Shown here: positions 14,599-64,000 of the stretch, piece by piece
How the letters are laid out: every line of letters begins with the position of its first letter
Numbering within the stretch: position 1 is the stretch's first letter
NCBI RefSeq assembly: GCF_041260155.1
Contig: NC_091947.1
Coordinates: 34,668,032-34,732,031 of the forward strand
DNA: 64,000 nucleotides
Direction: 5' to 3'
Source of the DNA: Ptychodera flava
Taxonomy: Eukaryota; Hemichordata; Enteropneusta; Ptychoderidae
The notes under the pieces: model-generated
Told to the model about the DNA's origin: nothing
The model's input: the letters and a program-made list of their open reading frames with translations, nothing else
The model's database searches: none
Translations under genes and position numbers: made by a program

Positions 14599-15007
14599 TA
14601 AGGGTTATTTTGATACGTTAAAAGTGACAGAACCGGCGTGATTAACGATTGTGAACGCTGTTTGGAATACATTGTGCTGCTACATGCTGGCCGGTGTTCT
14701 GCCATCTATACTCATTGCCATCTACACTCCGTTTGACCTTTGACACATACACTGGCACATCACTCAATTGTTATGCAAATAAAAATATCGCATTCAATCT
14801 ATACTCTGCCCTTGACACGGCTCAGGAAAATCGGAGGAAACATCTTTTACAAGTTGAATTTACGATGAACGGGCTGACTTGCCCAAGCAGAACCATGACA
14901 ACGACTCAACAAAGCGAGGGCTAGTATAGTCTATGGCCAGAAGAAATGGTTGCAGGGAGTAAAGATGGCAATGGGTGGAGTATAGATGGCAGGAGTATAG
15001 ATGGCAA

Positions 15008-15425
15008 ATGCACTTGCCATCCATACTCCATTGCCATCTATACTCCATTGCTGTTGATACTTTGTTGTCATCCATACTCCATCACTATCTATACTCCAAT
15101 GCTATCTATACTCCATCGCTATCTATACTTAATTGCTTTCTATACTTAATTGCTTTCTATACTCCATTGCCATCTATACTCCAATGCTGTTGATACTTTG
15201 TTGTCATCCATATTCCATCACTATCTATACTCCATTGCTATCTATACTTAATTGCTATCTATACTTAATTGCTTTCTATACTCAATTGCTTTCTATACTC
15301 CATTACCATCTATACTCCATTGCTGTTGATACTTTGTCATCCATACTCCATCGCTATCTATACTCCATTGCTATCTATTCTTAATTGCTTTCTATACTCA
15401 ATTGCTATCGATCTATACTCCATTT
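15008..15425 (+). repeat. ~17-bp minisatellite (CTATACTCCATTGCYAT)
   Basis: Roughly two dozen imperfect units. Oppositely oriented units precede it at 14963-15007 (GGAGTATAGATGGCA), making a local foldback. Shorter blocks recur at 15838-15915, 16225-16345 and 17050-17080. Confidence 0.85.
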
Positions 15426-15720: not shown

Positions 15721-17089
15721 TTCAATTTATTTTGAACATTATGTTTGACAGTGACTCAACAAATCAAGGGCTAGTATAGTCTATGGCCAGTAGAAATGGT
15801 TGCAGGGAGTAAAGATGGCAATGGATGGAGTATAGATTGCAGGAGTATAGATGGCAAGTGCACTTGCCATCTATACTCCATTGCCATCTATACTCCATTG
15901 CCATCTTTACTCCGTTGCTATTTCTATTCATTGCCATGACAAGAGAGAGGTTTTTGAAAGGTACACAATGGATTCTGAACTGAATTCATTTGTAAAGGCC
16001 AATTGATTTAAATCATTTAGGCCTACTGTTTTGATTCAGAACAATGAAAACTTCACTGAGGGTGTTTTTTTATAATAAATAAAAAAACTGAGAAGAGACT
16101 TCTTGGGGCTGGTACATTATTTCTTTGTTCATTATATTTCACGAGGATTTATTTCGAAAATAAGTTTGACAATGACTCAACAAATCAAGGGCAAGTATAG
16201 TGTATGGCCGGTAGAAATGGTTGTACAGGAGTATAGATAGCAGGAGTATAGAGGGCATGTGTACATGCCATTTATACTCCACTGCTATCTATACTCTTTT
16301 GCTGTCTATACTTTGTTGTCATCTATACTCGATTGCTACCTATGTATGATAGGTTCTGAACTGAATTTCTGATACGGAGCTTCATTGTAAAAGCTGCACT
16401 GACATATTTTTAATATACCAGAGGGACAGTGAATAAAGACGATTACTGCCGTGAGTTAACGGAATCATTGACAAATTCTGCCAGTCAGCGACTTTGGTAA
16501 ATGGATGCTTGGAGTACAGCTTTCAATAATCAAGATTACAAACTAGAAACAATGCCTTTCACTTCGGGCGTTTTGCAAGAAAAAAATGTTAGAAATGGAT
16601 CTGAAATATATTAAAGTATTAGTACATTACAGAGACAAATAAAAAAAACCAAAAACAATGAACTGACAACACAAAAACTACTAAAATTCAGAATGTGAGT
16701 TCAAACAAAAATATCACGGATCAACCAATCGCCAGTATAGCTACGGGACCCGGGCCACTAGGCCTACCCATGCACTGTACACCCTGTGAAGTTCGTACAT
16801 TGAGATCCGATCTGGAAACTGGTAAGCTTAGGTGTGTGCAGTGGGTTCTGCAATGAAATCAAACATTTTATATCCTTTTGCAATTTCTTTAACATTGGGA
16901 AAACGATATTTTTTTCTGTTAATAAAAGTGGAGTATAGATGGCAAGAGAGCATAGATGGCACCTTACACTGCCATCAACACTCACACTGAGTGACAGTTA
17001 TTTGCATAATAATGGGTGACATGCCAGTGCATTTGTCAAAGGTCAAAAGGAGTGTAGATGGCAACGAGTACAGATGGCAGAGCACCGGC

Positions 17090-31931: not shown

Positions 31932-32042
31932 GAGAAAAATAAAAATTTAGTTTCTCATCGTATCATATTGGCTAATAGATTGGGTCATGTCCGTCCATGA
32001 GTCCATCCGTGAGTCCATCCTTTCACGCAGATATCTCAGATA

Positions 32043-33131
32043 TTTTGACAAAATGTCACGTGACCTCGGTGACCTTTGACCTCAAATATTACATATTTGT
32101 CCATAACTCAGGAACCACAAGTGGTACACCCTTCATATATGGTATGATGGCACAGCTTATGACGCCACATATTGTACCTCATTAATTATGCGCATATCTA
32201 ATTTTGAGCAAGCCAATAGAGCTAGAGGTCTGATTTTTGGTATATAGGGATAACTTAGCAATAAAAATTTTTTGACAAAATGTCACGTGACCTCGGTGAC
32301 CTTTGACCTCAAATATACATATTTGTCCATAACTCAGTAACCACAAGTGCTACACCCTTCATGTATGGTATGATGGGACACTTTATGATGCCACATATTG
32401 TACCTCATTAATTATGTGCATATCTAATTTTGAGCAAGCCAATAGAGCTAGAGGTCTGATTTTTGGTATATAGGGATAACTTAGCACTACAATTTTTTTG
32501 ACAAAATGTCATGTGACCTTGGTGACCTTTGACCTCAAATATACATATTTGTCCATAACTCAGTAACCACAAGTGCTACACCCTTCATATATGGTATGAT
32601 GGGACAGCTTATGACGCCACATATTGTACCTCATTAATTATGCGCATATCTAATTTTGAGCGAGCCAATAGAGCTAGAGGTCTGATTTTTGGTATATAGG
32701 GATAACTTAGCAATACAATGTTTTTGACAAAATGTCATGTGACCTCGGTGACCTTTGACCTCAAATATACATATTTGTCCATAACTCAGTAACCACAAGT
32801 GCTACACCCTTCATATATGGTATGATGGGACACCTTATGACGCCACATATTGTACCTCATTAGTTATGTGCATATCTAATTTTGAGCGAGTCAATAGAGC
32901 TAGAGGTCTGATTTTTTGTATATAGGGATAACTTAGCAATAACAATTATTTTGACAAAATGTCACATGACCTCGATGACCTTTGACCTCAAATATACATA
33001 TTTGTCCATAACTCAGTAACCACAAGTGGTACACCCTTCATATATGGTATGATGGGAGACCTTATGATGCTTCATACTGTACCTCATTAATTATGCATAT
33101 ATCTAATTCTGAGCAAACCCATAGAGCTGGA
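32043..33131 (+). repeat. five tandem ~227-bp units, each with a DR1-type TGACCTTTGACCT
   Basis: Units begin with TTTTGACAAAATGTCACGTG near 32043, 32270, 32497, 32725 and 32952. Every one contains TGACCTTTGACCT (32070, 32297, 32523, 32749, 32976), the inverse of AGGTCAAAGGTCA, with a third TGACCT 3 bp away in most and CACGTG or a variant next to it. Confidence 0.9.
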
Positions 33132-33364
33132 TGTCTGTCATACATATGCACATAGATTTGTTCTGTGATACGATCCAATAAGGCCGCCATGTGGCCATTT
33201 TATTACAATTCTTTCATGTCCTGAACTACAGCTCAGACATGTATCAAGCGAATTTATTCAAAAGTATTTTTATCACAGACCTAATGAAGAGGACTCTATC
33301 CTCTCTGAGGACCTGTAATCAAGTACCCATTAACAAGTGGGGACTGTGTCATCAACGATGACTT

Positions 33365-37660: not shown

Positions 37661-38330
37661 TGTTGATTATGTTGATTGGCTTTAAAAATCTGGTGGATTA
37701 AATTTTATTCCTACCAAATTTTTTAGCTCTTGCATTATTTTTGTCTGCGCAGCAGAGTGTGTTGAAGTGGTAAGGTGATGGCAGTTTCTCAGCAGCACTG
37801 ATAAAAAAGTTTCAAGTTGTTGGGGTGACTATAATTCAGAGTGCAGAAGGTAGGTTGATTTTATAAAGCACAGCAGTAGGAAATCTACTAGCAGAGAGGC
37901 AGCTAATTGCCAGGTAGAGTGGCAGCTAACCTCCAGAAGAGATAGAGAAAATCTAATTCTGGGCTCTCCGGGAAAGATATTCCACGAGCTCTTGTACCCT
38001 TGAGAGGGACCTTCATGGAAGAGGATAGATTCTTGATTGCCAACATGTCAGAGGGGTGTTATGTCCATGTGACAAACATGTTTCATTGAGCAGCACAGAT
38101 TTCGGGTGCAGCTGCCTGGATTTCAAGCCATACATGTTTCCAACATGTATTGTCCATGTTGTCAATACATAACGAAAAGTTAAAATCAATATGGTCAGAC
38201 ACATGTTTTGAAACCTGTAGGTAACATGCATATGACACATGTTTGTTACCAGTAGGAAACACAATGTAAATGGGTATCATTTCGGTAAGGGATATTATCA
38301 CAAGGAAACAAATCAGTTGCCTATGCATCA
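37661..38330. other. 3' flank, no supported gene
   Basis: It contains a cluster of ACATGTTT-type half palindromes at 38075-38260 (for example AAACATGTTT and ACATGTTTCCAACATGT). Their meaning is unknown. Confidence 0.4.
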
Positions 38331-38379
38331 AGATTGATGACAGAGACTGCAGAAATATGACACCTCACTGAAATATACA

Positions 38380-40153
38380 CTTGGGAAGGAACTATTACCA
38401 GTTACCAGACATGTTATCGCAAGCATACATCCCTCGATGTGACAGTGATCATGACATGGATGAAGAACTATTAGCAGTTGTACAGCATGTGATGTCAGCA
38501 CTACCGGTATCAGACAACAAACTAGAGGAGATTAGAAAAGAGACAGCAAATGACCAAACCCTAACAGAACTGAAATCTGTGATATTGAAGGGATGGCCAA
38601 CAAGCAACAATCAAATACCAATCAGATTAAAGCCATACTGGAAGCACAGAGATGAACTATCGATAATGGATGAGATCATATTCAAAGGTGAGCGAATATT
38701 AATTCCGCACAAACTTAATGCTAAAGAACATCCACACAGGCCATAAAGGAATAGAGAAGTCCAAGAAACATGCAAGAGACGTTCTCTTCTGGCCAGGTAT
38801 GAATACACAAATAGAAAATATGGTATCACAGTGCAGCACTTGTCTGGAACACCGTAAATCAACCAGAAAGAGCCAATGATACCAAGCAAGTACCAAATGA
38901 CCCCTGGCAAGCAGTCGCTAAAGATCTCTTCACCATCAACAACGTCAACTACTTGGTTGCGATGGACTACTACTCCAAAAATTTTGAAGATGCAAAATTG
39001 GACAATACGAAAAACAACACTGGTAAGCTACACCAAATCCATTTCCCAAGACATGGAACACCAATCGAAGTAAGAAGTGACAACGGTCCACAATTCACAT
39101 CCAGTGAATATCGACGATTCTCCAAAGAATGGAACTTCAAACACACAACTATCAGTCAATCCGATGGTATGGCAGAGATAACCGTACAAAAATCAGACTT
39201 ACTACGAAAAGCTGCAAAGATGGAAAAGATCCCTATCTCAGCATCCTGGAGTACAGAAACACACCGGTTGATGACATTACTGATGAGTAGAAGATTGCGT
39301 TCTATCATACCAATTACTCAAAGTCACCTGAAACCAAAAGCCATCAACCAGGAAACCATCAATGGCAAGTTGAAAGAAAAGCAAGATCGTCAAAAGCAAT
39401 ACTACGACAGAAATGCCAAACCACTCCTGTCACTAAACACAGGACACACCATGAAAATTCAACAACAAGGTAAATGGGAAATAGCAAAGGTCAAAGGTCA
39501 TGCAGGGAAACCAAGATCGTACTACATTGAAACACCTGAAGGAAAAGCATACCGTCAAAACAGAAGACATCTGATGAAAACCAATGAAAAACCGCCAACT
39601 CAAAAATCAACCATCATTGACGACGAAGCAAATGTGACCAAAGAGCATCCATCTTCCACAAAACAACATCCATCGATTGCTATGGAAACAACACCAGCTG
39701 AGAAAGAGCGACCGGTCAACCAGAAAGTTACAACAACAAGAAGTGGAAGAGTTGTGGCAAAGCCTGAGAAGTATAAGGATTATGTCTGCAATTGAGGTCA
39801 ACAAACATAGAGTCAAAAGGGCAGAGTAATCCCTGACTCACTTTAGTTAGAATAGGCACCAGCGGGATAGTCCACCCCGTCTTGTTAGTTAGTTGAAATA
39901 TACAATCATTCATCATATATAAATTGGCTTGACATTAGAACAGATATAAGGAACTAGGACAAGTCTGCATGAAGATCATGAACACTATGAACACTGTGAA
40001 CTTGATGACTGAACTCTGAACTCAATAATGCTGCTGACAATTTTACATATCTCATTTGATCAAGAATCGTTACAATAATATTTCATAGTTGCCAATATAC
40101 AACAAACGAAATTCATAGAAATTTCATGAACATCTCAATCTCAAACGGGGAGT
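38380..40153 (+). mobile_element. Ty3/Gypsy-like LTR retrotransposon fossil, 3' pol part
   Basis: Pieces of the pol polyprotein occur in order: the end of the RNase H/linker region, the integrase zinc-binding region, part of the integrase core, and a basic integrase C-terminal region ending near 39795. A purine-rich AAACGGGGAG at 40143-40152 followed by TGTCATGATG looks like the polypurine tract and the start of a 3' LTR, whose far end and 5' partner were not found. Gag, protease and most of reverse transcriptase are absent. The copy is broken, with at least several breaks, and looks old. Confidence 0.75.
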
Positions 40154-59559: not shown

Positions 59560-60453
59560 GGGCATATTTAGATTTCTACCCTATAGTTATCCCTATATAC
59601 CAAAAATTGGACATCCAGCTCTATTGGCTTGCTCAGAATTAGATATGCGCATAATTAATGAGGTACAATATGTGGTGTCATAAGGTGTCCCATCATACCA
59701 AATATGAAGGGTGTAGCACTTGTGGTTACTGAGTTGTGGACAAATATATATATTTGAGGTCAAAGGTCATTGAGGTCACGTGACATTTTGTCAAAATAAT
59801 TGTATTGCTAAGTTATTCCTATATACCAAAAATCAGACCTCTAGCTCTATTGGCTCGCTCAAAATTAGATATGCGCATAATTAATGAGGTACAATATGTG
59901 GTGTCATAAGGTGTCCCATCATACCAAATATGAAGGGTGTAGCACTTGTGGTTACTGAGTTGTGGACAAATATATATATTTGAGGTCAAAGGTCACCAAG
60001 GTCACATGATATTTTGTCAAAATGTCTGAGATATCTGCGTGAACCGATGGACTCACTGATGGACTCACGGACGGATATGACCCAATCTATAAGCCCCCTG
60101 GACTTTATCCGTGGGGACAAAAAACTGTGTCACTGCATCCTTTAGGCAATATGAATACGATGAGAAACTAAATTTTTATTTTTCTTGGCCTTATACATGG
60201 GAATCTATGGAGAACTGCCTTATACATGGGAGTCTATGGAGGTGTAAACTAAAAAGTCCTCTAACACGGCCAAATTCGATCGCATTGTGAAACAAATCGA
60301 CGTGCATCTGTATGGGGTTGGGTACTATTCTTGTGCAAAGTTTGAAAGAAATTGACCAGGGCATGTCTGAGATATCTGCGTGAACGGACGGACGGACGGA
60401 CGGACTGACATGACCAAACCTATAACTCCCCCAGGACTTCGTCCGTGGGCACT
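59560..60453 (-). mobile_element. reverse-oriented, shortened copy of the AGTCCCCACGGAC repeat family
   Basis: Two 227-bp units with AGGTCAAAGGTCA (59757 and 59983) are followed by an internal left end (TTATCCGTGGGGAC, ending 60112), two units of the 25-bp minisatellite, and the outer left end (CGTCCGTGGGCACT, ending 60453). The right-terminal hairpin seen in the other copies is missing. Confidence 0.75.
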
Positions 60454-60815: not shown

Positions 60816-61129
60816 CTAGCCCTGCGTACGATGCTATGTGCTACAGCTAACACACAGCATCGTACGCAGGGCTAGCGAGAGAGTTGCCGACATCGACGGT
60901 TATTTACGAGAAGTGAATAAAAGACTGTCATTTTTGGAAGCGATCGAGTAGCTGAGGTAGGCTGGGATACGACTTGGGCCCAAGAACGCTGAATTTCGGC
61001 AGTAATTTGCTTTTTACGTCAAGTCCAAAATGGATTTGAAGTCACCGACCCTACGTACGGGTCTTTGCAGGGCTGTGGTGAGCGGGGCGATTAGCTGTAG
61101 CGGAACACACAGCATCGTACGCAGGGCTA
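60816..61129. mobile_element. 314-bp hAT-like MITE with an extra inverted terminus inside
   Basis: The left end CTAGCCCTGCGTACGATGCT is inversely matched by AGCATCGTACGCAGGGCTAG at 61111-61130 and again, internally, at 60856-60875. GTTGACCC flanks the element (60808-60815 and 61130-61137), an 8-bp hAT-type duplication. The TAGCCCTGC start resembles the element at 1631-1719. Confidence 0.8.
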
Positions 61130-61137
61130 GTTGACCC

Positions 61138-61995
61138 AAGTGAAAATGTGTTTCGCGATCAAATCTTCCTGTATTTTTTTCAGAATTTTCGACAAAATCA
61201 TTGCTTCTTAAATCTTTTGTAAAATATAAAATACTTAAATAAAAATGCGATGTGCCATGTCTCCAGATTTCTAATATCGTTCGTTGACCGTTCGACGGAA
61301 TACTCATTTCGCAAACTTGTGACGCAGTTGAAATTCAATACTGACCGCCAAATAATCTTAATGAGACGAGATCATTCTAGACATCCTCCAAATTATCCAA
61401 CCATTCGCGTTAGAGTTCAGCTCGCTTAGAGTATCATAACATTCTTCGGCCTTTCGTTTAGATCGACCCTAATCTCTCCCATTTAGGAAATAAATCACAA
61501 GCTAACTTGACAAAACTTCGTGCATGCACCATCCAGGACCAAACGCACTACAAATCTGTCTTGACGTCATCATCTCCTTACATGGTAATCGGCATACCGT
61601 ATTTTTAGCAAAGGAGACACAGAATACGTCGGAGTATTCAGTTTCAAAACGTATTACATTGTGTGATGTTGTCAAAAAAACGTAATGTTACTGCAGTGGT
61701 ATAAATAAGAAAAACACAAAAGTTCAAATCAGTTTATTTTGGACTGGCTTTACCCAACATTTATATTGTTTCTTATGCCAGATTTGACCACGTGCTTACT
61801 GGCGACCCCTTTACATGCAAATTTTGTGTCAAATGGTGTGTTCTCCTGGAAAAACAAACGTACGATTTCTATATGAAGGAGGCGAAATTTGCCCTCAAAA
61901 CTCGAAACCACCCCTTTAGGGGTGTACCTAGCTATTTTGAACGAGCTTCTCGAATCTGCAGCTCTATTTCGAAATGATGGTCTGGTTTTCTCAGC
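61138..61995. other. no supported gene
   Basis: A moderately CpG-containing stretch that could hold a promoter for the candidate exon at 60807, but no motif decides it. Confidence 0.35.
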
Positions 61996-62207: not shown

Positions 62208-62775
62208 CTGAAATTACCCCTCCCACTTTGGCTCGTCCAGTGGGTGTAGCAAGGGTCGTGCCATCGCCCAGGAAACGGAGGGTGCATTAATTGTTGCATT
62301 TCGATGCACATTTTGATTATATTCAGAAGATTTTGTGGCAAAAACTCAGATAGAGAAGCATTAATATTCACATCTCACTTATTCAAGACTGGCTGAGAGC
62401 AGCACTTCCATTCAGTTAACATCATTACGCCATTTATTATGCCAAGAAAGATGAAGCCAAGACATTTTGCCCTCCCTGGTCTCAGCCAGAAATGGTTATA
62501 CCTACAGAGTTTTTTCCCACGGAATGAAAACAAATGTACTTGGGCTGAGGCAGCTGCCCCCCTGGAATTTTCGTGAAAAGTGAAATTTTCATGCCTTGAA
62601 TTGATGATTTACAAACGTCAAGTGTCTCCGTTATTCACTACTGACTCTTCGCTATTTCTATCTTTGCTGTAGTTTATTGTCTGCTGGATTAATTGAATCA
62701 AGTGTTACTTTTCCAGCGCTCTGAATAAAATGTAAGTCTTTTGCAGTTTAAAACAAAATAATAAAACATCTTTGT
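62208..62775. other. no supported gene
   Basis: Sequence between the candidate terminal exon and the promoter region of the plus-strand gene. No repeat or exon identified. Confidence 0.35.
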
Positions 62776-62784
62776 GCGGGAAAA
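62776..62784 (-). promoter_or_regulatory. E2F-like site
   Basis: GCGGGAAAA, whose inverse TTTTCCCGC contains the E2F consensus TTTSSCGC. It lies 103 bp upstream of the ATG at 62887. E2F sites mark S-phase promoters in animals; binding here is inferred. Confidence 0.4.
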
Positions 62785-62886
62785 TACAAAAAGAAGCGCG
62801 AACGCACATGCACTGTATTTAGTCAAGTAACACGGCAGTTCGACTAGTCGCCTTCACACACTGTCAGCTCTCGCAATTTGCCAAAA

Positions 62887-62963
62887 ATGACAGATAGTGA
62901 AAGTCCGAAGAAACGACGTCGTGTTCAGCAATCTATTTTGACATTTGTCAGGAAGCAGGCAGG
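62887..62963 (+). CDS. first coding exon: NLS plus PCNA-box-like motif
   Basis: An ATG in good context (GCCAAAAATGA) opens 25 codons and two bases before a donor (GCAGG|GTAAGC). The peptide is MTDSESPKKRRRVQQSILTF then VRKQA. PKKRRRV is almost the classical monopartite nuclear import signal. QQSILTFV follows the PCNA-interacting pattern Q-x-x-hydrophobic-x-x-aromatic, although the second aromatic is Val. The same NLS-plus-QxxIxxFF layout opens several replication proteins and also many hAT-type transposase-derived proteins, so either is possible. The rest of the gene would lie to the right; no further exon was recognised before 64000. Confidence 0.65.
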
Positions 62964-63109
62964 GTAAGCATACCATTTTGTAGTGGGCTAAAGGAGAAAG
63001 TCCGAGGCGTTCAACGTGACGTCAGGTCGCACGCATGCATCGCAGTGGCTACGAGCGCGTTCGTTCGCCTCTTTTTATGGCAGGCAGATCTCTTTTTGGA
63101 ATATTTGGT
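62964..63109 (+). other. intron of the plus-strand gene, start
   Basis: GC-richer sequence between the donor at 62964 and the stem-loop of the opposite-strand gene. A 24-codon plus-strand frame at 63078-63152 overlaps the stem-loop and is probably chance. Confidence 0.4.
63089..63101 (-). promoter_or_regulatory. histone-downstream-element-like purine tract
   Basis: On the minus strand, CCAAAAAGAGAT follows the stem-loop by about 10 nt. A purine-rich element at this spacing pairs with U7 snRNA in animal histone pre-mRNAs. Confidence 0.45.
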
Positions 63110-63125
63110 GGCCCTGAAAAGGGCC
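63110..63125 (-). terminator. histone mRNA 3' stem-loop
   Basis: The minus strand reads GGCCCTTTTCAGGGCC followed by ACCA: a 6-bp stem, UUUC loop and the ACCA cleavage flank, as in replication-dependent histone mRNAs bound by SLBP. It starts 26 nt after the stop of the ORF at 63152-63471, normal histone spacing. Confidence 0.8.
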
Positions 63126-63151
63126 GTTCGTTTTTTGAGCGATCAACATGA

Positions 63152-63471
63152 TCACTCTGAATCAGAGCTTGAAGCCTCTTCTAAGTGTTCAAGTTCGGTA
63201 CGGGCAAACTGAAACGTTTCTGCATTTTTGAAGTAGGCTTCTATTAATGCAGCAATAGTGCCCCAAACATCTTCAAATATCTCCCCAAACATGTGGTTTA
63301 ACTGGAGGTGATATAGCTGATCATGAAGCTCTTGCAGAATTCTGGTGTTCCTGAGTGTACAGTCATTCAGAACGCGTTCTAAGAAAGCGCACCTAACAAA
63401 TGCCGGTCGATGGGAAATGGAACGCAAAATATCCAAACGAAGGGCACATTAACGTTATCCCATAAACTCAT
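63152..63471 (-). CDS. small non-histone ORF ending in a histone-type 3' end
   Basis: An open frame of about 97 codons ends at TGA (63152-63154). It reads LDILRSISHRPAFVRCAFLE, RVLNDCTLRNTRILQELHDQ, LYHLQLNHMFGEIFEDVWGT, IAALIEAYFKNAETFQFART and ends in an acidic tail, EEASSSDSE. It looks helical and is not an H1, H2A, H2B, H3 or H4 sequence. The frame lacks its own early ATG. The ATG at 63471 (MSLWDNVNVPFVW) is one frame off, so there is either a single-base indel near 63440-63470 or an upstream exon joined at an internal acceptor (GCATTTGTTAG, exon from 63388). A CCAAT box precedes the ATG by about 80 bp. The downstream stem-loop suggests a non-polyadenylated, S-phase mRNA. Confidence 0.6.
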
Positions 63472-63542
63472 GTTGAAGTCGACGGTTTAGTGACTGAAGA
63501 GTAACTGTGACAATTCGCTCCACTATTAGCTGAAATAGTAAA

Positions 63543-63553
63543 TACGTCATTGG
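63543..63553 (-). promoter_or_regulatory. CCAAT box with adjoining TGACGTA
   Basis: The minus strand reads CCAATGACGTA, a CCAAT box fused to a CRE-like half site, 70-80 bp upstream of the ATG at 63471. CCAAT boxes are usual in histone and other cell-cycle promoters. Confidence 0.4.
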
Positions 63554-64000
63554 GCGCATCATCGAATTGTAATACTTTGTAACAGTCATGAATGCCGCCA
63601 CAGGGATTAATTCATAAGTATTGCGTCCTCAAACTTTCGAATGGTATGCAGTCATAAAATAACAGAAACATTAATTTTTCTAGTACATTATACAACATTC
63701 GTAACAAAAGACTTGCGAACAGGAGAGATTAGTGGACTGGTAAAGTCCTATTCAAAACACAGTATGTTTCCATGTCAAACTTCAAAAACACGCGCACCGG
63801 GGGGGGGGGGGGGGCAGATAATTTAATTACTTTGGCCTTAGTGAAATGTACTGGTTTGTAGACTGAATGCCAAACACACGTTATCAGTTCGGTACCAAAC
63901 AACATTTATAATGACATTTTCGATATTTCATATGGAATAAATTACCCCTACTTTCCGATTCTGGGTTTCGACTATACTATAGGCAAGTGAAAAATCACTC
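63554..64000. other. no supported gene
   Basis: Contains the G16 run at 63799-63814. No exon was recognised. Confidence 0.4.
63799..63814. repeat. G16 homopolymer
   Basis: Read directly on the plus strand. Confidence 0.9.

Follow-up and report, generated by a model that had tools for sequence, protein, structure and literature searches.

A consensus histone-type mRNA 3' end behind an acidic open frame without recognisable histone similarity in the hemichordate Ptychodera flava

Introduction

Can a gene that does not encode a histone carry the 3' end of a replication-dependent histone mRNA? This question is raised by the minus strand of a 64,000-nucleotide stretch of the Ptychodera flava genome (contig NC_091947.1, positions 34,668,032 to 34,732,031), which was analyzed as a whole and is called the window below. 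A preliminary description of this DNA, made from its letters alone, had noticed a stem-loop of histone type close behind an open frame that resembles no core or linker histone.

The available excerpts of two papers describe replication-dependent histone mRNAs as the sole known animal mRNAs that end in a stem-loop and not in poly(A) (PMC6303110; PMC1924863), and one of them places the main cut in the histone pre-mRNA 5 nt 3' of the stem (PMC6303110). In excerpts of a study of Hydractinia, a 16-base stem-loop and a purine-rich element are named as the hallmarks of replication-dependent histones, and the core histone genes are reported to be intronless with short UTRs (PMC5011920). Among the open-licence literature matches listed, as represented by their titles and the beginnings of their abstracts, there was no non-histone animal mRNA with a stem-loop 3' end. 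A re-analysis of SLBP eCLIP data, according to the excerpted account of one replicate, placed about 13% of 899 peaks in histone mRNAs, with many other peaks broad and possibly unspecific (PMC8212874). As far as that excerpt goes, the data leave room for other targets, and stem-loops elsewhere are neither shown nor excluded by those peaks.

Results

The 3' signal on the minus strand

The elements that make up the 3' signal are the following, in the direction of the minus strand.

63125-63110, minus strand: histone-type stem-loop GGCCCTTTTCAGGGCC (GGCCCT-TTTC-AGGGCC; 6 bp stem, 4 nt loop), from Rfam RF00032 and the sequence
63109-63106, minus strand: ACCA directly 3' of the stem, from the sequence; to judge by histone genes, cleavage would be expected about here
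63097-63090, minus strand: purine-rich downstream element, putatively of U7 type, AAAAAGAG, 12 nt 3' of the stem
63076-63069, minus strand: second copy of AAAAAGAG, 33 nt 3' of the stem

An Rfam scan of the 64-kb window matched RF00032 (Histone3) at 63130-63085 on the minus strand, with 39.4 bits against a gathering score of 34 and an E-value of 4.6e-08. At the gathering level this was the sole Rfam family matched in the window, with one match, and in the alignment the stem, the loop and the flank agree with the family consensus. The stem-loop sequence, folded alone, gives -9.9 kcal/mol. The pattern GGYYYTTTHHARRRCCACC, the general consensus of SLBP-binding stem-loops, was used to scan the window; it has a single occurrence there and none in 100 shuffles. 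A narrower core of 19 bases, GGCYCTTTTCAGRGCCACC, was matched exactly in 6 stretches of a prokaryote collection of 257 Gb, and at none of these six loci did any Rfam family match at the gathering level. Based on this count, the core is expected by chance about 1.5e-6 times per 64 kb, with the flanks and the purine element not yet counted. Within 1500 nt from the start of the stem there is no ATTAAA, and the first AATAAA lies only at 447 nt.

The last 7 bases of AAAAAGAG are complementary to CUCUUUU at the 5' end of human U7 snRNA, and the U7 of this host may differ. AAAAGAG occurs 12 times in the window when both strands are counted, which puts the chance of finding one in a given 10-nt stretch near 0.001. 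The energy of the duplex with the human U7 end was not significant, being as low in 464 of 1000 shuffles and in 817 of 2000 random stretches of the window. The signal on the minus strand is a genuine consensus histone-type 3' end, and the stem-loop, the ACCA and the purine-rich element named in the preliminary description are all present at this site.

The open frame and its start

Upstream of the stem, the same strand carries an open frame, a second and shorter frame, and two motifs that could belong to a promoter.

63448-63155, minus strand: open frame of 98 codons, acidic and predicted to be helical, from the sequence; its TGA lies at 63154-63152
63471-63379, minus strand: upstream ATG with its own frame of 30 codons, which ends in TAG and is not in register with the 98-codon frame
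63553-63549, minus strand: CCAAT, a 5-base match, weak alone
63544-63539, minus strand: TATTTA, TATA-like, weak alone

The ORF had originally been described as having about 97 codons and a stop 26 nt before the stem. Its extent and placement were confirmed, with 98 open codons, a TGA and a spacer of 26 nt between this stop and the stem, but its start was not, since the ATG at 63471 lies in a different frame, which stops after 30 codons. The 98-codon frame opens just after a TAA and has its earliest in-frame ATG at codon 53, so that no intact ATG-started frame was found to end shortly before the stem. The CCAAT box that had been reported upstream is there, though as a motif of five bases it carries little weight alone. 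Some 330 nt before the ATG at 63471, at 63799-63814, the minus strand has a run of 16 C.

The lack of register between the upstream ATG and the long frame implies that the copy is misread at one point, that the allele is broken, or that translation starts elsewhere. Between 64000 and 63100, a matrix-based splice-site scan found no donor above the cut-off; it listed six acceptor-like sites, one of which, at 63241, falls within the open frame. The lack of a donor is consistent with an intronless unit and makes an intron wholly in view an unlikely cause of the frame break, while an exon beyond 64000 may supply the start of the frame. The break itself may stem from a sequencing or assembly error, from a broken allele, from decay, or from a start at another codon.

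Evidence that the frame encodes a protein

A stop-free run of 98 codons arises by chance in about 5.6% of simulated single strands that have this composition and a length of 400 nt, and 47 of the 7051 stop-free runs in the window have at least 98 codons. An open frame of at least 90 codons that ends 10-60 nt upstream is found at only 2.3% of window sites. The codon-position asymmetry of the 98-codon frame was not significant (p = 0.10), being exceeded in 8 of the 60 ORFs of at least 90 codons and equalled by 7.5% of random 294-nt stretches.

The predicted product stands out in other respects. With a charge of -6.8 and a pI of 5.1, it is the most acidic among the 87 window ORFs with 80-130 codons. 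A helical moment as strong as that of the frame is reached by 43 of 2000 shuffles and by 4 of the same 87 ORFs, a set that includes the frame itself. AlphaFold2, run on the single sequence without an alignment, predicted five helices with a mean pLDDT of 62.1, compared with 48.3 for the one control, the ORF at 61017-61334, which is of a different, mixed structural type. Acidity, helical moment, fold confidence and the placement of the frame together lend moderate support to a protein. A scan of two collections, made up of viral and prokaryote contigs, yielded no relatives.

Similarity to histones

Sequence searches with the 98-codon frame against Pfam, NCBIfam, PHROGs and PDB returned nothing of weight, and no Pfam histone match. 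When five histones were tried, the frame reached a local score of 38 against helix 2 of H4, with 8 of 25 positions identical, a score reached by 4 of 1000 shuffles. Because 6 of the 725 ORF-histone pairs in the window, the pair of this frame included, score at least 38, the H4-like helix is at chance level; a BLASTP search with H4 produced no alignment, even with E-values up to 100 admitted. The earlier statement that the ORF is unlike core or linker histones therefore holds, in that profile searches gave no histone match and the similarity to H1, H2A, H2B, H3 and H4 is at the level of chance.

A tblastn search with five histone queries detected no histone remnant in the 64-kb window (best E 0.34). 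As regards a histone cluster, RF00032 was matched once in the 64 kb and histone fragments were not detected there; upstream of the stem, the window extends for a further 875 nt. The frame, having no recognisable histone similarity, lacks what defines a histone gene, but the 3' end, which matches RF00032, has the defining feature of that family.

Other sequence features of the window

An open frame at 38815-39792 on the plus strand, one of ten ORFs scanned, contains a retroviral-type integrase core (Pfam rve, E 7e-09) and looks like a fragment of an LTR retrotransposon. Around it, at 38001-40000, the AT skew of 0.295 reflects a strong excess of A on the plus strand. The integrase fragment, the repeats and the stem-loop itself all point to animal DNA. 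Tandem arrays at 32041-33137 and 59585-60023 both have a unit of 226 bp; within the parts of the consensus units that were compared, a stretch of one recurs in the other as its reverse complement, so that these arrays probably represent one satellite family in two orientations. Two further arrays, at 14977-15409 and 15827-15937, are built from 17-bp units, TTGCTATCTATACTCCA and one closely related to it; in front of each array lie two copies of a 15-bp unit similar to the reverse complement of the array's own unit. A weak snoR20a-like C/D box match at 62880-62960 on the plus strand (24.6 bits against a gathering score of 42, E 0.92) is probably due to chance.

Discussion

A histone-style unit for a non-histone protein

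The best explanation that we can offer, and one to which we give slightly less than even credence, is that the locus is built for expression in the manner of a histone gene and encodes a small non-histone protein, acidic and helical, the frame being broken in the present sequence. The compact unit on the minus strand would begin with a possible promoter, continue with some 100 codons of open frame and, after the 26 nt between stop and stem, end in the histone stem-loop and an element of U7 type. By analogy with histone genes, SLBP would bind the stem-loop of the pre-mRNA and the U7 snRNP would bind AAAAAGAG; the transcript would be cut a few nt 3' of the stem, would receive no poly(A) and would accumulate in S phase. 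The product would be a small acidic helical protein in which no histone is recognisable. For the promoter, the processing by SLBP and U7, the S-phase expression and the translation of the unit, we infer the putative course of events from that same analogy. The frame would belong either to an unusual gene whose expression keeps pace with DNA replication or to a gene that has been damaged or orphaned.

The preliminary description had gone further and proposed a different protein under the control of SLBP and U7. This proposal is sustained in part, in that the 3' end is of consensus type and the frame holds no recognisable histone, and it is weakened by a proposed start that is out of frame and by borderline coding statistics. 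A true non-histone member of the SLBP/U7 regulon, small, acidic and helical and produced solely during DNA copying in fixed proportion to the histones, is a possibility that we consider real though doubtful. Such a member would perhaps escort histones or regulate S phase, having borrowed the histone 3' end. If a non-histone protein were indeed under this control, the 3'-end system would be open to capture by other genes, and the locus would indicate a protein that has to be dosed in line with DNA synthesis.

Alternative explanations

A decaying or chimeric histone-style unit, whose 3' end is intact or was lately freed from selection while its coding part is broken and yields no functional product, would account for the frame break and the late first ATG, for the borderline coding statistics, and for surroundings rich in repeats, with many tandem arrays and an integrase fragment. 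We nevertheless consider it rather unlikely, because neutral decay should have struck the 3' signal too, whereas stem, loop and flank all conform to the Rfam consensus and no histone remnant is seen in the frame that precedes them. The repeat-rich surroundings would also suit a stem-loop left over from an ordinary histone gene, with the coding part displaced or lying beyond the end of the window through insertion of foreign DNA between stop and stem, and the short piece of strand visible upstream of the stem (875 nt) agrees with this. Yet the window yielded no histone fragment to the five histone queries (tblastn E no better than 0.34), a comparison of 62401-64000 with the rest of the window found only matching stretches of 14-20 bases, and the open frame stops at a histone-like distance from the stem, which together make a displaced histone gene quite improbable.

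That same distance, along with the position of the long frame as the most acidic of 87 ORFs and a helix pattern above that of most of them, argues against a gene for a short peptide or a non-coding RNA with a borrowed histone 3' end. We regard such a gene as unlikely, even though the ATG at 63471 yields just 30 codons and the long frame falls short of significance in its coding statistics. A histone-fold protein diverged past recognition could be read into the score of 38 against H4 helix 2 (8/25 identical, 4/1000 shuffles), but this is the chance level when five histones are tried and 6 of 725 window pairs score as high; moreover, neither BLASTP with H4 at E 100 or better nor Pfam gave a match, and the frame is acidic where histones are basic. 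This makes a diverged histone very improbable. Hardly credible is a chance match of the stem-loop, for which published look-alikes outside histone genes offer a precedent: excerpts of two papers report a Histone3 match of 14.7 bits in coding sequence of a coronavirus (PMC7786107) and a viroid element that has the identical loop sequence but lacks an extended stem (PMC6827988). As the excerpts present them, neither look-alike has a score of 39.4 bits and neither is a known 3' end. At the present locus, the core alone is expected about 1.5e-6 times per 64 kb, before the purine element is considered, and 0 of 100 shuffles reproduced the stem-loop pattern.

Comparison with known systems

The favored reading, a histone-style unit for a small acidic protein, can be set against the metazoan replication-dependent histone genes (H1, H2A, H2B, H3, H4). 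With these the locus shares a consensus stem-loop, ACCA, a purine-rich downstream element and a short spacer between stop and stem, as well as a length of about 100 codons, the lack of an AATAAA nearby and the lack of a good splice donor in view. Unlike them, it has an acidic predicted product with no recognisable histone, no ATG before codon 53, and a single stem-loop in 64 kb.

The excerpted Hydractinia study offers two closer points of reference. The histone pseudogene H1.3 keeps its coding sequence and has three mismatches in its stem-loop (PMC5011920). Like H1.3, the locus described here is possibly not expressed, but the arrangement is reversed, the stem being intact and the histone coding sequence not found in the window. 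The variants H2A.X.1 and H3.3.2 are drawn with a stem-loop (PMC5011920) and, as may also be the case at the present locus, have it outside the canonical histone cluster; unlike the open frame in Ptychodera flava, in which no histone is recognisable, these two variants encode histones.
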